Shown: one piece after another, positions 7,010 to 63,527 of the stretch
How the letters are laid out: each line of letters begins with the position of its first letter
How positions within the stretch are numbered: position 1 is the first letter of the stretch
DNA from: Styela clava
Lineage: Eukaryota; Chordata; Ascidiacea; Stolidobranchia; Styelidae
DNA length: 64,000 bases
Assembly (NCBI RefSeq): GCF_964204865.1
Contig: NC_135262.1
Location: 744,001 to 808,000, forward strand
Direction: 5' to 3'
The notes under the pieces: model-generated
Databases searched by the model: none
The model's input: only the letters and a program-made list of their open reading frames with translations
What the model was told of the DNA's origin: nothing
Translations under genes and position numbers: made by a program

Positions 7010-7081
7010 AGGGGACACCCGGATTTGAACCAGGGACCTCTCGATCTGCAGTCGAATGCTCTACCACTGAGCTATATCCCC
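7010..7081 (-). tRNA. tRNA-Cys (GCA)
   Basis: The complement strand reads as a complete 72-base tRNA. The 7-bp acceptor stem is GGGGATA with TGTCCCC, with T as discriminator base, typical of cysteine tRNA. The D arm has TAGCTCAGTGGTAGAGC and the anticodon loop CTGCAGA gives anticodon GCA. The T arm has GGTTCAAATCC. All four stems pair, with a few G-T pairs. Box A and box B are intact, so it can serve as its own pol III promoter. It closely resembles vertebrate tRNA-Cys-GCA as I remember it. There is no intron and CCA is not encoded. Confidence 0.97.
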
Positions 7082-7235: not shown

Positions 7236-7718
7236 GGCGAAAACGTACTTAAAAAAATATGTAGTTTTGCGAGAATGTAGGTTTGCAAGAACGGACTTTT
7301 GTGAGTATGTAGGTTTGCGAGATCATACTTTTACGAGAATGTAGTTTTGCGTAAGCGGACTTTTGTAAGAATGTAGTTTTGCGAGAACGAACTTTTGTGA
7401 GAATGTAGCTTTGCGAGAAAGTACGTTTGTGAGAATGTAGTTTTGTGAAAACGCATATTTGTGAGAATGTAGGTTTGCGAGAATGTAGCTTTTCAAGAAA
7501 GTACTTTTGTGAGAAGGTAGGTTTGCGAGAATGTAGTTTTGCATAAAGCCGTAAACGAACTTTTGTAAGAATCTAGTTTTGCGAGAACGGACTTTTGTGA
7601 GAATGTAGCTTTGCGAGAAAGTACTTTTGTGAGAATGTAGTTTTGGGGAAACGTACTTTTGTGAGAATGAAGTTTTGGGAAAACGTACTTTTGTGAGAAT
7701 GTAGTTTTGTGAGAACTG
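7236..7718 (+). repeat. Minisatellite, 16-bp half-units in 32-bp dimers
   Basis: About 480 bases are built from two alternating 16-bp units of the types GAGAATGTAGTTTTGC and GAGAACGTACTTTTGT. They are mutated from copy to copy, with a few insertions (for example near 7545). It starts about 155 bases from the tRNA gene. A 179-codon minus-strand reading frame through the array (7323-7862) has a matching periodic composition and is best explained as a by-product of a repeat poor in stop codons. Confidence 0.88.
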
Positions 7719-55784: not shown

Positions 55785-58700
55785 ATGGATTTAAAAATTA
55801 TACTTGTTGCTATGACGATGGTTGCTATGATTCATTGTGAGGTGAGAATAGTTTTAAATAAATCATGACATGATTTTTTTTGTTTGGGAAACTGCGTAAT
55901 TTACTAATGTAAATTTATTTTCATATCGATTTCTAACATCTTATATATTCATAAATATCAGGAAAGTGGCCATTCTTGTTGTGAAATAAAATCAATGAAA
56001 AATCACTGAAGCACGACTTGTCAGAATAATTGCGCTGTAACAACAGTGTACCCATGCGGTCAATTTTCATTGTAGGATTTTAAACTTATTCAAACTAGAA
56101 GTCACTGAAGCATGACTTGTCAGAACAGTTCCATTGTAACAACAGTGTACCCATGCCGTCAATTATTAATGTAGAATTTTACCCTTATTCAAACTGAAAA
56201 TCACTTAAGCATGACTTGTCAGAACAGTTCCATTGTAACAACAGTGTACCCATGCCGTCAATTCTTAATGTAGAATTTCAACCTTATTCAAACTGAAAAT
56301 CACTGAAGCATGACTTGACAGAATAATTCCACTGTATCAACAATATACCATTTCTGCCCATCCCTGATATCATTTTTTTTTTATTCAGGATTGCAACACC
56401 GAGCTTTCTGAAACTTCTGGAGTGATAGTATCGGGGAAATACGGACATGGCATCAACTGTTCTTGGACAATAACTGCTCCAAAAGGTATTTGGATTTAAA
56501 AACTACCAATATTGGTTTTTCACAACTCTTTTCACCCTGAAATTCAAGATTTCGTAGTTCTTATATGACGGTCATTCCTTTTGCCTTATTCCTTTTGCTT
56601 CAAAAGAGGCTTCATTCAAGCACCAAATTAAATCCATAATGATATTCGGAATTCGGATATTATGCATTCCTTACTAGTTTATTATGATAGGATTTAACAT
56701 ATTTATCCCGGGGAGAGATGAGCCAAATAAGACTGTTTAATCATATGGCGAACCAAGGCCCCTCGTCCGTCTATCAGTACATGTTTGGTATGGGATTAGT
56801 TAGCCAGCTGTTTGTCTCAGATGCAAGGATTACGTGAACCACCCACAAAGGCCAGAATCCAGCGATTCTCCAGTGCGGTGGCGAGGGTATTCCTAACACT
56901 TAGCACAATACGTCACACTGCTGAGCCCGGTGAGATTTGAGGTACGAGATTTGAACCAGAGATGTGTAATCTGCTATGTCGACACAGTCAAGTCTAACGC
57001 TTCATTCGTCAAGCCGTTGTGCCAGCCTAAATGACATCTCCCTTGCTTTTTTTTTCATTTCTGTAGAATATTAATTTTGACCCTTGACCCTTTCCAGGAA
57101 ATTATGTCAAACTGGAATTCAACAAGGAAAAGTTTGATGTCGTCAGCAAGTTCATGTCTTGTAGCCACGACTACGTACAAGTGTTTTACGACTCCGCTAT
57201 CCCGAGCCCACACATCCAAACTTTCTGCAAATCGTTCGGAAATAAATTTGTCCCGAAAGACGTGATAACAAGCACGACAAATGTTCTTGTCATTAGACTT
57301 ATCAGCGATACGTTTTTCAAAAACGGGGAGGGATTTGAAGCAAAATACACTGTTGTGGATGAGTTTGGTAAGTTTCTTTTGATTTTATCTAATAGAATAG
57401 TAACAATGGGGATCTCTTATTTATTCCAAGCTGAGGAAAGCTAAGCAGGTGGCTTAATCATAGGGTGGAATTTTTCATTTGTCCCGGGTGAAAGGAAGGT
57501 ACTCCCGTAGTATGTGTACCAGGTTAGGGTTAGGCCCTAATTTCAATCTGATTTTTCATGATTTTAGTTCTATTACGAGTTTGGGGTCTGTCTGTGTTAG
57601 CCGAGTGAATATACTTCGTGCCCATAGGTTTCATTACCTTTATATAACTTGATGAAAAGTAGACTAACAAAATTAGTTACCTCCATATTGGTACACATAC
57701 TTCTGGAGCGCCGAAAGGAATAACTACATGATGGTTTTATCATAAGATAGGATTTTAGTATTTATCCTTCTGGAGAGAAAGCTGACGCGATGGCTTAATT
57801 ATAGGATAAAATTTTCCTATTTACTCCGGGGAAAGGAAAGCCAATTAGGGTGGTTGTTTCTTATGGTGAACCGTGGCTTCTCATCTTGCCAGTCCATCTT
57901 TGGTTTAAATTCCATGCCCATCCTGTGTGTAATAGATTGGCAATGTTTAACGAAAATATCCTGGTTCATCTAAATCAGCGGTTCCCAAACCGCGGCCCGT
58001 GGTAAAGATTTAATATGGCCCACTGAACTTGGGTGAACTAGTTTAGCACTTGTGTTTTTATCTTTTTGCTATCTACATATCGCCAATTGTTATGTCATTA
58101 TCACAGTTTAAGTGTATATTTGTGTAACAATTCAATTATACCAGTATCTTAGTTACATGTATTGGTATCGGCCCCTTGCGAGCTTTCCCTTCTCCTGGGC
58201 CCCGAATAATTTTTGCCCCTGGTCAATCAACTGTGGAAACCACCATTGCTCTAAAAAAAATAGCTCAGCGTTTGCTTGTTCAGGGCCATGTTCTGAGCGA
58301 AATGAGCATCATATAACAAAATATTTCTAGCCAGTTTTAATTAACTAGCTTTTCCACAAACATTGACGATCTTATTCCACTTACAGGCGAACCGATTGTA
58401 CCTGAAGAGACAGAAGGAGGTTTTGATGAAGATGACTGGGGGGAGGATACCACGGTTAGTTTGGATACATTTTTTTTTGAGGTAGTGGGGAGGGGGGAGA
58501 TTTAGGGGTAACGCATTTTCGGTGGTTAATTTTGAGGAAATTTGGCGTATTTTACGGGGGGTTACTTTTTAAAGTAAGCTGGATACTTTAAATGTGGCCA
58601 TGAGTTGCAGAATTAATTTATTGTTCGCATTTTCTCGTTTCGAGTTACCAGACAGCGTGGCAATTTTTAAAATACCTTTTATGGGATGTTTCTTTCCAGA

Positions 58701-61700
58701 GAATAAATATGAAAATCTTATCTTTGGAATCTGGCGTTGCTAGGTGTGGTGATTAAATAATCTCTGATAGAAATTGTGACCCTTAGAAATGCTAGTCCTG
58801 GATATTTGGTGTTGCTTTATAATTTTATTTTAATTATTCTTGTGTTTATGTTTTTGATCGTTTTTGCATGTTTTGTTTGGTTTGAACTAATTTTAACCCT
58901 AATTGGTTTGAATTTACGGTAATAACTGTTTTCCGGAGCGAGGTTTGCATTATTGCTTACGCTTTTATAGTAAGTTACTCAGTCACACTCTCGCACGCTC
59001 CGAGAGTCTCGAACTCTAACAGATCGATCGCTCAAATAACCAAACTCAAACGTAGAAAAACCAATGAGAATTCCCAACGTAAACTGACTGTTAGTGAGCC
59101 TTGCTCAGAGTGAAATTGTAATTGGCTCGTCAATGGAACCACCATATAGGTAAATTCGATTTTTTTGTCTAAATTTTGATTGGTAATTTCGGTTTTTCTG
59201 AATGCTCTATCATCAAGGATAATATGGTTAGTCTATAAATTATTCGCTCCAAGGTTAGTAGAAATGACATTGGCAAATTCAACTAAAACGTTTTCATTTA
59301 AATTCTGGATTGTTTTACTTCAAATTATTATTGAATCGGAAATCGGATGGAATGCTACGAAATTGTGTTTCTCTCACAAAACTTGCAAAAACACACAAAA
59401 TTTGCACTTTTCAAAATTTTGAATTACATGGGGATTCTCATCTGGTACTAGGGTCGACTCGTCGCTGGAAAATATGGACTACCTATGAAAGATGAAGGCA
59501 AAAACAAGGTTGAAAAAGATTGGGATGGAAAAAAAGTGCCCACATTGGGATCGAAATCAAAGGATAGCAAAAAGAAAAACAGAAAAGGAAAGAAACGTCG
59601 GGGTAAGAAGGAAAAGAAGAGCAAAGAAGAGAGAAAACTGGAACGTAAACTTCAACGACAAAAAATGAAAGCGCTCAAGCGTAAAGCAAGGAAAGCCGAA
59701 AGAAGACGCAGATCAAAATCAAAAGCTTAAAATGGATTTTAACTCTTTATCTACATATAAAAAAAACTTCATTAACCCTCATACTGCTACTAACAACTCA
59801 TGGTTTACTACGGCAACCATCTTTGCAGTGTCCATCCAACCTGGACTGGTAATCACATGGAGAATTGCATATGATAAGGTCGTCTTTTCCGATGGTCTGA
59901 ACAACTTTTTTATACCCCCTTATAATAATGTCGTAATTTTTTTTTCAAACATGCGACAATTTTTTCTTAAGTATCGTTGGGAAGCTTGTTTTAGCCTTTT
60001 CCCACTCACTGTCACACATAGGCTTAATCGTTCTTATCGGCTTTCCTCGTTGCTGAGACAGAGACTGAAATCCTATCCTGTCTTACCCGGTTCCGACAAA
60101 ACAAATTTGCTGGTGAGCATCATGAAAGCAATCTTGGTGTTTTGAAAAGTCAGCGCTCGCATTTTAAACGCTCTGCACATTGGTTGTTATGTATATATAT
60201 TACGGGATTCGGAATTGATTATTTTGTTATTCAATCGGAACCCTAAATATCGAAATTTGAATTTGTATTTCAAATTTACTGATCAATTAATTTTAATTAT
60301 TTTGAAATATCTAATCTTAATATTTTTCCAAATGTTGAAAAAATCATGTTAATTTCTACATTTTTACGTTTCAAATATTACTAACTTATGTCAGTCTTTG
60401 TTGCATTCCTCAGGTTTCCCAATTTTCATTATCTCTGTTTGAAATAATTTTTAATTTGAATGCTGAATACCGGTACGGTGGTATCACAATTTGATTTGAA
60501 TTTGAATCTCGCAAGTTCATAATTCATAATAAATAATTCAATAATAAATTCAATTTTATAATTAAGAATTGATTAATAAGTTTAATATTTATAGATTGAT
60601 TAATTTTATCAGAACTACTCTACTTAACTTCTAAAACCAAAAGTTGAGGGCTTTGGACCTTTTTTTTTGAGCAAATTTGCAACAAATTTGCAACTCTTCT
60701 ATCGGTACTCTTTCACTTTGAGTTAAGTGCTCGGGAAAGCTATTTACTAGGGGTCAGCAACCTTTTGTCACTCGCGGGTCAAAATTAGGGGTTGCAAGTC
60801 TTGGCACATATTTTTAGAAAGTAAAAAACCAAGATGGCCAATGACTCGAAATTTTTTCACACAGATTAGAAGAAGAAAATTAAGGAGACTGCGACAACAT
60901 GTGAACTCATCCTAGTCGTCTTACTAAAAGAAAAAAAAATTGTGAATGACATTTAATAATGTGATAATTATTGTTGATTAACATCAGTGAGACATCTCTC
61001 TAATAAATATGGATTTTATTTCCTTATTGCATTGAATATTTTCTGCGCTATTGAACCTGCTGCACCCAGCATCAACTTTTCTGCGTTTTGTTGCCGTTTG
61101 TCTAATTATAATTAAATTGTAAACTCGTTGAATGAGTAGCTGTCTGTTCACTAAATTGTTAGGTTATAAATAATATAATTCAATCTACAAGTTCTCACAA
61201 TAAAGTCTCTCACGTAAAGAATATAGTCGTAGAAACATTTTTTTTTAAAACATTGGTCGCGGGCCGGATTACTTTACTCTACAGTCCGGATCTGAGCCGT
61301 AGGTTGCAGACCCCCTGCTACATACCTTCGTTTGAGCAAGCTTGCTAAAAACTTACTTTCGTTAATATCTATCCCTCGTTCTGAACTGTTATATTTTTTT
61401 ATATCCTTATCTTATCAACTGTATCTGTGACTCTTATCAATGTGATATTCATTCCGTAGCTTTCTGTTTCAAGTTCAAAGGTCATTGTGAGTTACCTTTC
61501 TGCTTCATATATCCTGTGTTTATCTGGTGCCAATCTATGCTTTCTCAAAATCACTGCTTTTTATGTTTATCCAATGAATCTGTAATAAATTGATTTTGCA
61601 CTGAGATATATTTCTAATTAATGGATTTATTTGGGGTCTGTGTGATTTAAGTTTAGTTCTCACTGTATGTTATTGTGGGCAAGTTGATCCAGCGTTGAGG

Positions 61701-63085
61701 TCTCGAGATGAGATGACTTGATTCTGACTTTAATCGCCATTTATTAAAGTTTGGGGTGTACTAGGGTATTGTGTATTGAACTGCAGGTTCTTTCTCCTCA
61801 TTTACTTCCTATTCTAGATCCGTATGTTGCTGTTGCCACAAGGATGCGTGACTGAGATAAGTAATATAAAGATAAATAATCTCTTTCCACGAAATATCGA
61901 GTATATTTATGAGCTTTCGTTAGATCATAGTCTAACTTCTTCAGATAAAACAAGATATGGCTGCAAATAATAAAGATCAGTAATTAGTTAAAAATTGTAG
62001 GATTAAAATTACAGAAATACATTGGTCGGTTAGGTCTATCTCTACTGTGCGGATTCAGAGATTGATACTGGGGGTTTCCAGGTTTGTCCATTTATATGTG
62101 TTCCAATGTTTGCATTTGCCGTTTGGTCGGCAAGTTTTATATACTACTGGACCGCATTTGGCCCGTTTGCCGACTCTTGCTCTAAGTGCTCAGCAAACAA
62201 ATCCAAGTTCAATGAGCAATGGCTGCTTATATACAGCTTTGTTCAAATTATTTAAAGTGTATTAAAAAAAGCAAATCTGAAAAGGCTATCTCAAGTTGAA
62301 AAAGGGTAGCTAGTTTGTACTACCGAGGGGAGTTCTTCTCAGCATTTTAATGGTTGCTCCTTTACTTCAGGATTGTTTGCGCATGAGCATGGTGATTTGA
62401 GGTGATTTTTTGGTGCTGCCGTAGTATGTGAACCAAAATGGAGGGAAATGGAACGTAGTATGTGTACAAGGTTAGGGTTAGGCCTAATTTCAGGTTCAAT
62501 TACTACAGGTGTCACTTGGCTAGTGCTTACCAAACACGTAATAGAACCAGAATAAGGAAAACTGAGATAAAATTATGGCCTAACCCTATTCTGGTACACA
62601 TACTACATTCGGTGTTTGCCATTTTGGTGCACATACTACGGTAGCTCCGATTTTTTTTATAAAAAAGATTTTGACACCATACAAGGCTTTCGATAAGCAG
62701 ACACTTTAAAAGTGAGAGGCCATTGCATCTTGCAAAGACTTGATCCAATTATTTCTTTGTTCAGAGCTCAAGCACAACAACTACCGCACCCACGACGACG
62801 CCTACAGCATCTTCAACCACCACAACTGCTAGTACATCTGCAACAACTACCTTGATAAGCAAAATCATTTCTTCAACTACCGCTAGTACCAAGGGAGGGG
62901 AAAGTGCCTCTAAAAGCTCAACATTGCCAAGCGGTGGTGATGACGGAATATCCGGAAATGCAGGTACCACTAAATTATTATTGATATTTAGTTTTATTCT
63001 TTATTACTTATCGATTTTAATCGGTGAGTGTGTTGATAGGTATTGTCTGTTAGATACACGCGATATCTTACGAAAGCGAGATTGA
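55785..63085 (+). CDS. CUB-domain protein, mucin-like stalk and membrane anchor
   Basis: Five exons with agreeing phases: 55785-55841, 56389-56485, 57098-57367, 58387-58454, 62765-63085, giving 270 residues. Exon 1 is a signal peptide (MDLKIILVAMTMVAMIHC). One CUB domain occupies 20-136: C21-C43 and C73-C95 are the four CUB cysteines, with NCSWTITAP, CSHDYVQVFYD and GEGFEAKYTV in the expected order. N42 is in an N-glycosylation sequon. Exon 4 encodes an acidic linker (EETEGGFDEDDWGED). Exon 5 encodes a Thr/Ser-rich stalk suited to O-glycosylation (TTTAPTTTPTASSTTT), then a short hydrophobic segment (KLLLIFSFILYYLSILIG) that could be a membrane anchor or GPI signal. CUB domains bind proteins or glycans outside the cell. 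The acceptor CCGCAG ends 2 bases before the ATG. A donor-like GGTGAGTG at 63024 could lead to further exons. No named orthologue recognised. Confidence 0.82.
56000..56345 (+). repeat. 99-bp tandem repeat in CUB gene intron 1
   Basis: About 3.5 copies with starts at 56003, 56102, 56201 and 56300 (TCACTGAAGCATGACTTG) at an exact 99-base spacing. Copies 2 and 3 are nearly identical over CAGAACAGTTCCATTGTAAC and CAACAGTGTACCCATGCCGT. It ends 43 bases before exon 2. Confidence 0.95.
56692..56930 (-). mobile_element. tRNA-derived SINE in CUB gene intron 2
   Basis: Antisense family S copy: tail GATAGGATTTAACATATTTA first, head side with AACACTTAGCACAATACGTC at the right. Part of the middle is deleted. 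Confidence 0.8.
57498..57712. mobile_element. M1 MITE in CUB gene intron 3, perfect 8-bp duplication
   Basis: Ends GGTACTCCCGTAGTATGTGT and the family's ACTTCTGGAGCGCC end. Flanks gaaaggaa are identical (57490-57497, 57713-57720). It lies inside a decayed SINE (about 57440-57850), so it is the younger insertion. Confidence 0.93.
57975..58260. mobile_element. hAT-like MITE, diverged
   Basis: Left end CAGCGGTTCCCAAACCGCGG. The right end is a weak complement (GTGGAAACCACCATTGC). No clear target duplication. Confidence 0.5.
59452..59730 (+). CDS. Candidate alternative 3' exon of the CUB gene, basic tail
   Basis: An AG at 59450-59451 is followed by an open frame in phase 0, the same phase as the donor of CUB exon 4 (58454). 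Joining them appends 92 residues after DTT: GRLVAGKYGLPMKDEGKN, then a strongly basic run (KKKNRKGKKRRGKKEKKSKE; RKARKAERRRRSKSKA) and a stop. In-frame TAG occurs right at the acceptor, so the frame opens exactly there. The result would be a secreted CUB protein with a Lys/Arg-rich tail of heparin-binding character, in place of the stalk and anchor from 62.8 kb. The pyrimidine tract before the AG is weak. Alternatively the 81-codon frame from the ATG at 59485 is an independent small gene or chance. Confidence 0.5.
   Translation, partial: GRLVAGKYGLPMKDEGKNKVEKDWDGKKVPTLGSKSKDSKKKNRKGKKRRGKKEKKSKEERKLERKLQRQKMKALKRKARKAERRRRSKSKA
59735..60745. other. Intronic or intergenic, SINE remnants
   Basis: A diverged SINE is split over 59840-60080. 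The rest is AT-rich with AATAAA words near 60528, a possible poly(A) site for the basic-tail exon. Confidence 0.4.
60747..61316. mobile_element. hAT-like element in CUB gene intron 4
   Basis: Ends CTAGGGGTCAGCAACC and GGTTGCAGACCCCCT are inverted. Flanks gctattta / gctacata match at 6 of 8. GGGCCGG and CGCGGGTC words next to the ends are typical of this family; a partial copy is at 21.7 kb. No transposase. Confidence 0.7.
61317..62411. other. CUB gene intron 4 sequence
   Basis: No exon or complete repeat recognised. Bases about 62125-62175 contain a hAT-like end (TTGGCCCGTTTGCCGACTC). Confidence 0.4.
62412..62648. mobile_element. M1 MITE in CUB gene intron 4, perfect 8-bp duplication
   Basis: Ends GGTGCTGCCGTAGTATGTG and CACATACTACGGTAGCTCC. 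Flanks gatttttt are identical (62404-62411, 62649-62656). It ends about 115 bases before exon 5. Confidence 0.93.
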
Positions 63086-63291
63086 ATCTGCTCCAGATTT
63101 TGCATGTGCATTCATCATATGTCGTACCAGAAGCCTATTGATTTTGGGCGAATTATATCGTATAATTGGCGAGTTATTAATTAATTAGTGATGGGACACA
63201 AGGTGTCACTATGGAGTAAGAGCGCTGTTTTGGGGGATCCCCTAACTTTCGATCGATAAGTCTTCGGTCTCTGACCGATATTCTAGTTTTT
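63001..63291 (+). mobile_element. Family A repeat copy, overlapping the CUB gene's last exon
   Basis: Matches the complement of the copy at 48.65-49.10 kb from TTATTACTTATCG onward. It therefore contains the last 27 codons and the stop of the 62765-63085 exon. The M1 element at 63292 interrupts its far end. Confidence 0.85.
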
Positions 63292-63527
63292 GGGCTCCTG
63301 AAGTATGCGAACCAAGATGGCGGACATCGGAATGTAATATGTGTACTAGGTTAGGGTTAGGCCATAATTTTAGGTACAAATACTACGAGAGGCACTTGGC
63401 TAGTCTTCGAACTCATAGTAGGACTAAAATAAGGGAAATTGGAATAAAATTATGGTCTAACCCTAACCTGTTACCCATGCTACGTTTCGATGTCCGGCAT
63501 CTTGGTTCGCATACTTCAGGAGCACCC
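63292..63527. mobile_element. M1 MITE nested in family A repeat, perfect 8-bp duplication
   Basis: Ends GGGCTCCTGAAGTATGCGAA and TTCGCATACTTCAGGAGCACCC. Flanks tagttttt are identical (63284-63291, 63528-63535). The arms contain AAGATGGCGGACATCGGA, as in the 10.7 kb copy. Confidence 0.95.

Follow-up and report, generated by a model that had tools for sequence, protein, structure and literature searches.

A CUB-domain gene of Styela clava with a membrane-anchored form and a candidate alternative last exon for a secreted, basic-tailed form

The 64,000-nt stretch of the Styela clava genome analysed here (the window; C17:744001-808000) carries on its plus strand a gene for a protein with one CUB domain, and the shared N-terminal part of this gene can be continued in two ways in the same frame. 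One continuation is a serine/threonine-rich stalk that leads to a transmembrane segment, and the other is a lysine/arginine-rich frame that opens within intron 4 and ends there at a stop codon. All the coordinates given below are positions in the window, unless a contig is named, and the genome searches covered 376.6 Mb in 379 contigs. The features of the gene and of its introns are listed in Table 1.

Table 1. Exons, alternative frames and intronic features of the CUB gene (a slash marks the end of an exon at its donor)
Feature	Position	Strand	Content
Exon 1	55785-55841	+	Initiation codon; signal peptide by visual inspection, MDLKIILVAMTMVAMIHCE; donor GAG/GTGAGA
Exon 2	56389-56485	+	CUB domain, first part; phase 0 to 1
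Exon 3	57098-57367	+	CUB domain, remainder; phase 1 to 1
Exon 4	58387-58454	+	Acidic linker common to both proposed forms; ends in phase 0; donor ACG/GTTAGT
AG-free zone, candidate distant-branch-point region	59262-59449	+	Branch-point-like A at 59296 and 59317
Exon 5a, proposed alternative last exon	59452-59730	+	92-codon Lys/Arg-rich tail; TAA stop at 59728-59730
Rival open reading frame, nested gene	59485-59730	+	ATG at 59485; 81 codons; predicted 81-aa intracellular polybasic protein
Exon 5b	62765-62963	+	Ser/Thr-rich stalk; phase 0 to 1; good acceptor; donor CAG/GTACCA
Dispersed repeat of about 290 bp	63001-63291	+	In intron 5; source of the second half, tail and stop codon in the frame at 62964-63085
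Exon 6	64058-64166, beyond window end	+	Transmembrane, encodes GAMSGAVIGGIVGIVILIFGILLIVAFVHWKRNKNK; good acceptor
Exon 7	64709-64835, beyond window end	+	Rest of cytoplasmic tail and TAA stop; good acceptor

The CUB gene and its membrane-anchored form

Exons 1 to 4 join to 492 nt, or 164 codons without a stop, and exon 4 therefore ends in phase 0. The Pfam CUB profile (PF00431) matches residues 21-135 over the whole domain (profile positions 1-110 of 110), with 48.8 bits against a curated cut-off of 21.4 (E=1e-12), which places the product among the CUB domain proteins. This match, which accompanies a signal-peptide-like start, bears out a prediction made earlier from the window sequence alone (hereafter the original prediction), which had described a CUB gene with a fourth exon ending in phase 0. 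A sequence search of the PDB yielded 20 distinct sequences matching at E<=0.01, with cubilin (2.6e-16), PCPE-1 and neuropilins at the top. The linker encoded by exon 4 has a net charge of -10. CUB was the sole match above a curated cut-off in the Pfam scans of both proposed forms, and no PDGF/VEGF domain was found in these scans, so that the protein is not assigned to the PDGF/VEGF growth-factor family.

A genome search with the 164-aa CUB part returned its own exons 2-4 and one decayed fragment of exon 3 (4 matches, 12 candidates), and the gene is single-copy by this search. The fragment, at C17:996496-996576, about 195 kb downstream, is 85% identical over 67 bp and is the sole relative recovered with this query. 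Clusters of CUB-domain exons occur elsewhere, at C3:8.18-8.22 Mb, C3:15.71-15.81 Mb, C14:13.36-13.41 Mb and C19:9.35-9.39 Mb, among others; these come from an incomplete list of 150 matches, for which 150 of 350 candidates were scored, and the CUB exons of the gene described here fall outside those 150. Intron 1 contains a tandem array with a 99-bp unit (3.5 copies, 55999-56349).

At 62765, the original prediction had placed a phase-0 acceptor opening a Thr/Ser stalk, and the frame there is indeed open in phase 0, with 55% serine and threonine over residues 165-231. The Pfam Mucin profile remained below its cut-off on the stalk (25.1 bits vs 34.7). The anchor had been sought in a "hydrophobic end" at 62964-63085. 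However, the second half, tail and stop of this segment belong to a repeat that begins at 63001, and a transmembrane exon was found instead beyond the end of the window, in sequence fetched to C17:827000 and scanned for in-phase exons with a hydrophobic segment. In the hydropathy scan, 2 of 48 candidate acceptors exceeded the threshold for each of two donors, and peak hydropathy was 3.23 over 19 residues in exon 6 vs 2.17 in the 62964-63085 segment. The predicted anchored form is thus supported, but its anchor is supplied by exons outside the window. The segment at 62964-63085 was rejected as an anchor on account of the repeat start and of the far more hydrophobic in-phase exon at 64058. The in-phase transmembrane and cytoplasmic exons downstream also led us to reject a glycosylphosphatidylinositol anchor.

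With the donor at 62963, the full model has 7 exons and encodes 308 aa (phases 0-0, 0-1, 1-1, 1-0, 0-1, 1-2 and 2-0). The predicted cytoplasmic tail has about 48 residues and ends in ETTETFPL, and the stop codon is followed by AATAAA poly(A) signals at 64851 (16 nt past the stop) and 64940. Judged from sequence and hydropathy, the product starts with a signal peptide and has a single transmembrane helix, next to which lie basic residues and then a cytoplasmic tail, as in type I membrane proteins. We therefore consider a membrane-anchored form, a 308-aa type I protein, to be well supported at sequence level. Exon 5b most likely ends at 62963. An alternative in-frame donor of the same phase (63023, TCG/GTGAGT) would add 20 residues (TTKLLLIFSFILYYLSILIG), which are partly encoded by the repeat.

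The repeat in intron 5 is dispersed in the genome. The search with it gave 2477 first-look candidates, 40 of which were scored, and listed 46 matches including itself; 20 of the 45 others start exactly at 63001 and 44 of the 45 end at 63287-63293. Most of the listed copies are 88-95% identical, and a further copy lies in the window at 48.86-49.10 kb, on the minus strand.

The basic open frame of intron 4 and its acceptor

The original prediction also included a 92-codon Lys/Arg-rich tail with a stop, opening at 59452. This frame is present: it joins exon 4 in phase 0 without a stop, 42 of its 92 residues are lysine or arginine (K+R), its isoelectric point is 11.2, its net charge is +31, and a single RRRR motif lies near its end. 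Among 972 stop-to-stop open reading frames (ORFs) of at least 60 aa, it ranked first for K+R fraction, with 0.39 and 0.38 in the next two (64 and 60 aa); these ORFs come from 284 kb, made up of the window and 22 further stretches of 10 kb, one of them sharing 1 kb with the window. None of 20,000 dinucleotide shuffles of the segment was both open and as basic (359 were open in frame), and 0 of 60 windows generated by an order-3 Markov model held an ORF of at least 90 aa with a K+R fraction of at least 0.45. The rank, shuffle and Markov figures are not those of a blind test, the frame having been chosen for its oddness. Its best 60 residues contain 34 K+R, compared with 24 in the runner-up of the same ORF set. 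By these sequence statistics, the basic frame is no ordinary chance ORF.

When 566 kb of strands were scanned for 276-nt patches with a purine content of 73.5% or more, the value of the ORF itself serving as the threshold, the sole one found sits on the basic frame. The best-scoring purine/composition segment of intron 4 starts at 59487 and ends between 59725 and 59736, depending on the weights, that is, around the stop codon. The first 33 nt after 59452 have a GC content of 52%, a value reached by only 6% of the 33-mers of intron 4, and 7 of the 12 CG dinucleotides of the frame fall at codon positions 1-2 (P=0.066). A genome search with the basic tail found only its own locus (8 candidates), and the tail is single-copy by this search. 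Weighing these features against the counter-evidence given below, we suggest that the basic frame is probably coding.

The sequence preceding the frame is also unusual. The nearest AG upstream of the acceptor at 59452 is 190 nt away, whereas the six other acceptors of the gene have distances of 27-67 nt, and the zone is in this respect much longer than those of ordinary exons, as in exons with distant branch points. Its 188 nt contain no AG (9.3 expected) and 9 GA (9.3 expected), and none of 200,000 base shuffles was free of AG. In 566 kb of strands, AG-free runs of at least 190 nt precede 11 of 27,869 AGs; in the control, GA-free runs of this length were 1 of 32,088. Since the zone was noticed post hoc, the former frequency should not be taken for a P value from a test planned beforehand. 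Two sites at -156 and -135 resemble branch points in motif only, with 16 and 12 pyrimidines, respectively, in the next 25 positions. AG exclusion zones are a hallmark of distant-branch-point exons (Gooding et al. 2006, PMC1431707, in extract), and the experimental examples described there were all alternatively spliced, some of them mutually exclusively. A 3' splice site that is weak and preceded by 190 nt free of AG therefore suggests a distant branch point, and the exon would then be regulated rather than constitutive.

Several observations weigh against the use of this frame as a last exon of the CUB gene. Both ends of the proposed switch are open in the phase of exon 4, but the AG of the 59452 acceptor (59450-59451) makes up the last two bases of the in-frame TAG delimiting the ORF. 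In one phase or another, a "phase-0 acceptor" would appear at every ORF that follows a TAG, and the match at 59452 is therefore weak evidence and carries little weight. The acceptor itself is weak by consensus, with 9 pyrimidines of 16 vs 12-13 for the six other acceptors of the gene, and it ranks 86th among 206 intron-4 AGs with a matrix built from those six and 17th among 205 with a generic profile. A second AG-free run in intron 4, of 241 nt, ends at 60395 with no phase-0 frame of at least 50 aa behind it, so the zone at 59452 could be due to chance. Codon-position periodicity, which is present in the CUB exons and the stalk, is absent from the basic frame (10,486 of 20,000 shuffles were as extreme), and its choice among synonymous codons is closer to the background (P=0.145) than to the gene set (P=0.0145); however, the latter test does not discriminate, because the better supported stalk fails it too. 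No relative of the basic tail was found in this genome, Pfam, NCBIfam (where only sub-threshold chance matches were obtained) or the PDB. Finally, the first AATAAA after the stop lies at 60528, leaving about 800 nt without a canonical signal, with only the variant TATAAA nearer, at 59756.

The lack of periodicity, the codon use that is not gene-like, the weak acceptor, the absence of a near canonical poly(A) signal and the failure to find a relative are the properties expected if the frame is unused, be it a relic or a frame left open by chance within purine-rich sequence, with the CUB gene making the membrane form only. We consider this explanation unlikely, given that the frame ranks first among the 972 ORFs, that no shuffle reproduced it, that its purine patch is unique and ends at the stop codon, and that an AG-free zone precedes it.

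The strongest rival to an alternative last exon is a separate small gene nested in intron 4 and translated from the ATG at 59485, with an mRNA starting near or at 59452, possibly trans-spliced to a spliced leader, and a CUB gene again limited to the membrane form. The start of the best-scoring composition segment at 59487, right by this ATG, fits such a gene, and the acceptor, which is weak, has a long stretch free of AG upstream and lies 33 nt from the ATG, could equally serve trans-splicing. Operons and trans-splicing have been reported in tunicates, and at a Botryllus locus, what was once read as splicing into a secreted and a membrane form turned out to be two genes (PMC3691228, in extract). 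Conversely, the context of the ATG (TGGACTACCTATGAAAG) is poor by the usual rules, no relative of the 81-aa protein was found in the genome, Pfam, NCBIfam or the PDB, and it would have to be a coincidence that the 33 nt from 59452 to the ATG are relatively rich in GC and form an open stretch in the phase of exon 4. We consider a nested gene improbable to about the same degree as an unused frame.

The basic exon might also be internal, ending at a donor at 59602 (GGG/GTAAGA) that looks good by eye and matches exon 6 in phase. As internal exons, 5a and 5b would share one phase (0 to 1) and exclude each other, and the second product would be another membrane form with a basic segment in place of the Ser/Thr stalk. 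Such an arrangement would leave the K/R-rich coding sequence that continues past 59602 up to the stop unexplained, and we regard it as very improbable.

Neighbouring sequences

Other frames of the window match CHGN/Fringe, PUF/CPL, DUF1308/DUF5614, RAWUL/RING, VHL and ribosomal S6 in Pfam. Downstream of the CUB gene, there is a piece of a hAT-type transposase (L015:761-1924, minus strand; Pfam Dimer_Tnp_hAT, 3.7e-10), and a C-type-lectin-like frame (L015:6969-7581, plus strand) for which the Lectin_C match is below the cut-off (E=0.092). Two pairs of inverted arms resemble miniature inverted-repeat transposable elements and have related copies elsewhere in the window: one at 62412-62441 and 62619-62648 (30 nt, 90% complementary) and the other at 63294-63372 and 63445-63523 (79 nt, 89% complementary). 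A 32-bp tandem array (14 copies, 7261-7716) adjoins a minus-strand tRNA gene at 7010-7081. The genome contains a GH6 exon (one match, E=1.5e-6; 9.9e-11 with the open frame). Among animals, GH6 is not known outside tunicates, and the exon thus points to a tunicate.

A possible switch and its relation to known systems

Of the two fates that the original prediction gave to one CUB domain, the membrane form is supported at sequence level, whereas the secreted, basic-tailed form is plausible but unproven. The model of the membrane gene, the open frame with its basic composition statistics, and the zone free of AG are established at that level, whereas regulation, binding to polyanions, secretion and the use of the acceptor at 59452 are inferred. 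A regulated exon is indicated by two separate features of the sequence. We favour, at roughly even chances, the reading in which intron 4 carries an alternative last exon that yields the secreted form. Splicing of exon 4 to 62765 would produce a membrane protein with a signal peptide, CUB domain, acidic linker, Ser/Thr stalk, transmembrane helix and cytoplasmic tail. Splicing to 59452 would replace the stalk, anchor and cytoplasmic tail with the 92-residue polycationic tail and its stop, giving a secreted CUB protein of 256 aa. The basic tail would be expected to bind polyanions, such as sulfated matrix glycans, and its RRRR motif could permit trimming by proprotein convertases. If the weak 3' site depends on a distant branch point, the choice of exon would be regulated.

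A more specific proposal, which we hold to be doubtful, is that a distant branch point with an AG exclusion zone of about 190 nt controls the switch, the CUB domain either being presented at the cell surface by a mucin-like stalk and a cytoplasmic tail, or leaving the cell with a polycationic tail of 92 residues that fixes it to matrix polyanions, so that a neuropilin-type and a PDGF-A-type switch would be united in one exon choice. If this were confirmed by RNA, a single exon choice would set whether the same binding domain acts as a cell-surface receptor or as a soluble ligand or decoy bound to the matrix. An alternative exon outside vertebrates would then also have been flagged by an AG exclusion zone visible in the genomic sequence alone. 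If the basic frame belongs instead to a separate transcript, the locus would be another case, after Botryllus fuhc, of an apparent single spliced gene being two. In either case, annotation benefits from the corrected 7-exon model, whose anchor lies beyond the window.

Distant-branch-point exons resemble the 59452 exon in their long AG-free zone before the 3' splice site, but the class was described, in the extract of that report, for human exons, and the candidate here comes from a different organism and has branch sites that are motif-like only. The fuhc locus of Botryllus was first read as one gene with secreted and transmembrane splice forms, and proved to consist of two adjacent genes with some linked transcripts (PMC3691228). 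According to the same extract, its membrane gene has immunoglobulin domains, unlike the CUB gene described here, and the case serves as a warning for the Styela locus.

Neuropilins have two CUB domains plus other domains. Splicing of neuropilin-1 and neuropilin-2 yields soluble forms without the transmembrane segment (PMC7720527, in extract), and these genes are thus similar to the present one in the CUB-containing ectodomain and in the pairing of soluble and membrane forms proposed here. They differ from it in that the Styela protein has a single CUB domain and its proposed soluble form gains a 92-residue polycationic tail. For such a tail, the closer parallels are the alternative heparin-binding exons of VEGF-A (exon 6/7 isoforms; PMC7720527) and the alternative Lys/Arg-rich C-terminal extension of the long PDGF-A isoform, which is a matrix-retention motif (PMC3072383, in extract). 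An alternative Lys/Arg-rich C-terminal stretch is predicted for the Styela gene too, where it would be joined to a secreted CUB protein; however, PDGF-A and VEGF-A are growth factors, and their alternative is another secreted form rather than a membrane form. Our searches of the open-access literature found no gene combining both switches on a single CUB domain. Taken separately, the two halves are nevertheless already established in the extracts cited: the switch between secreted and membrane forms in neuropilin-1, and the K/R-rich retention tail in PDGF-A and VEGF-A.

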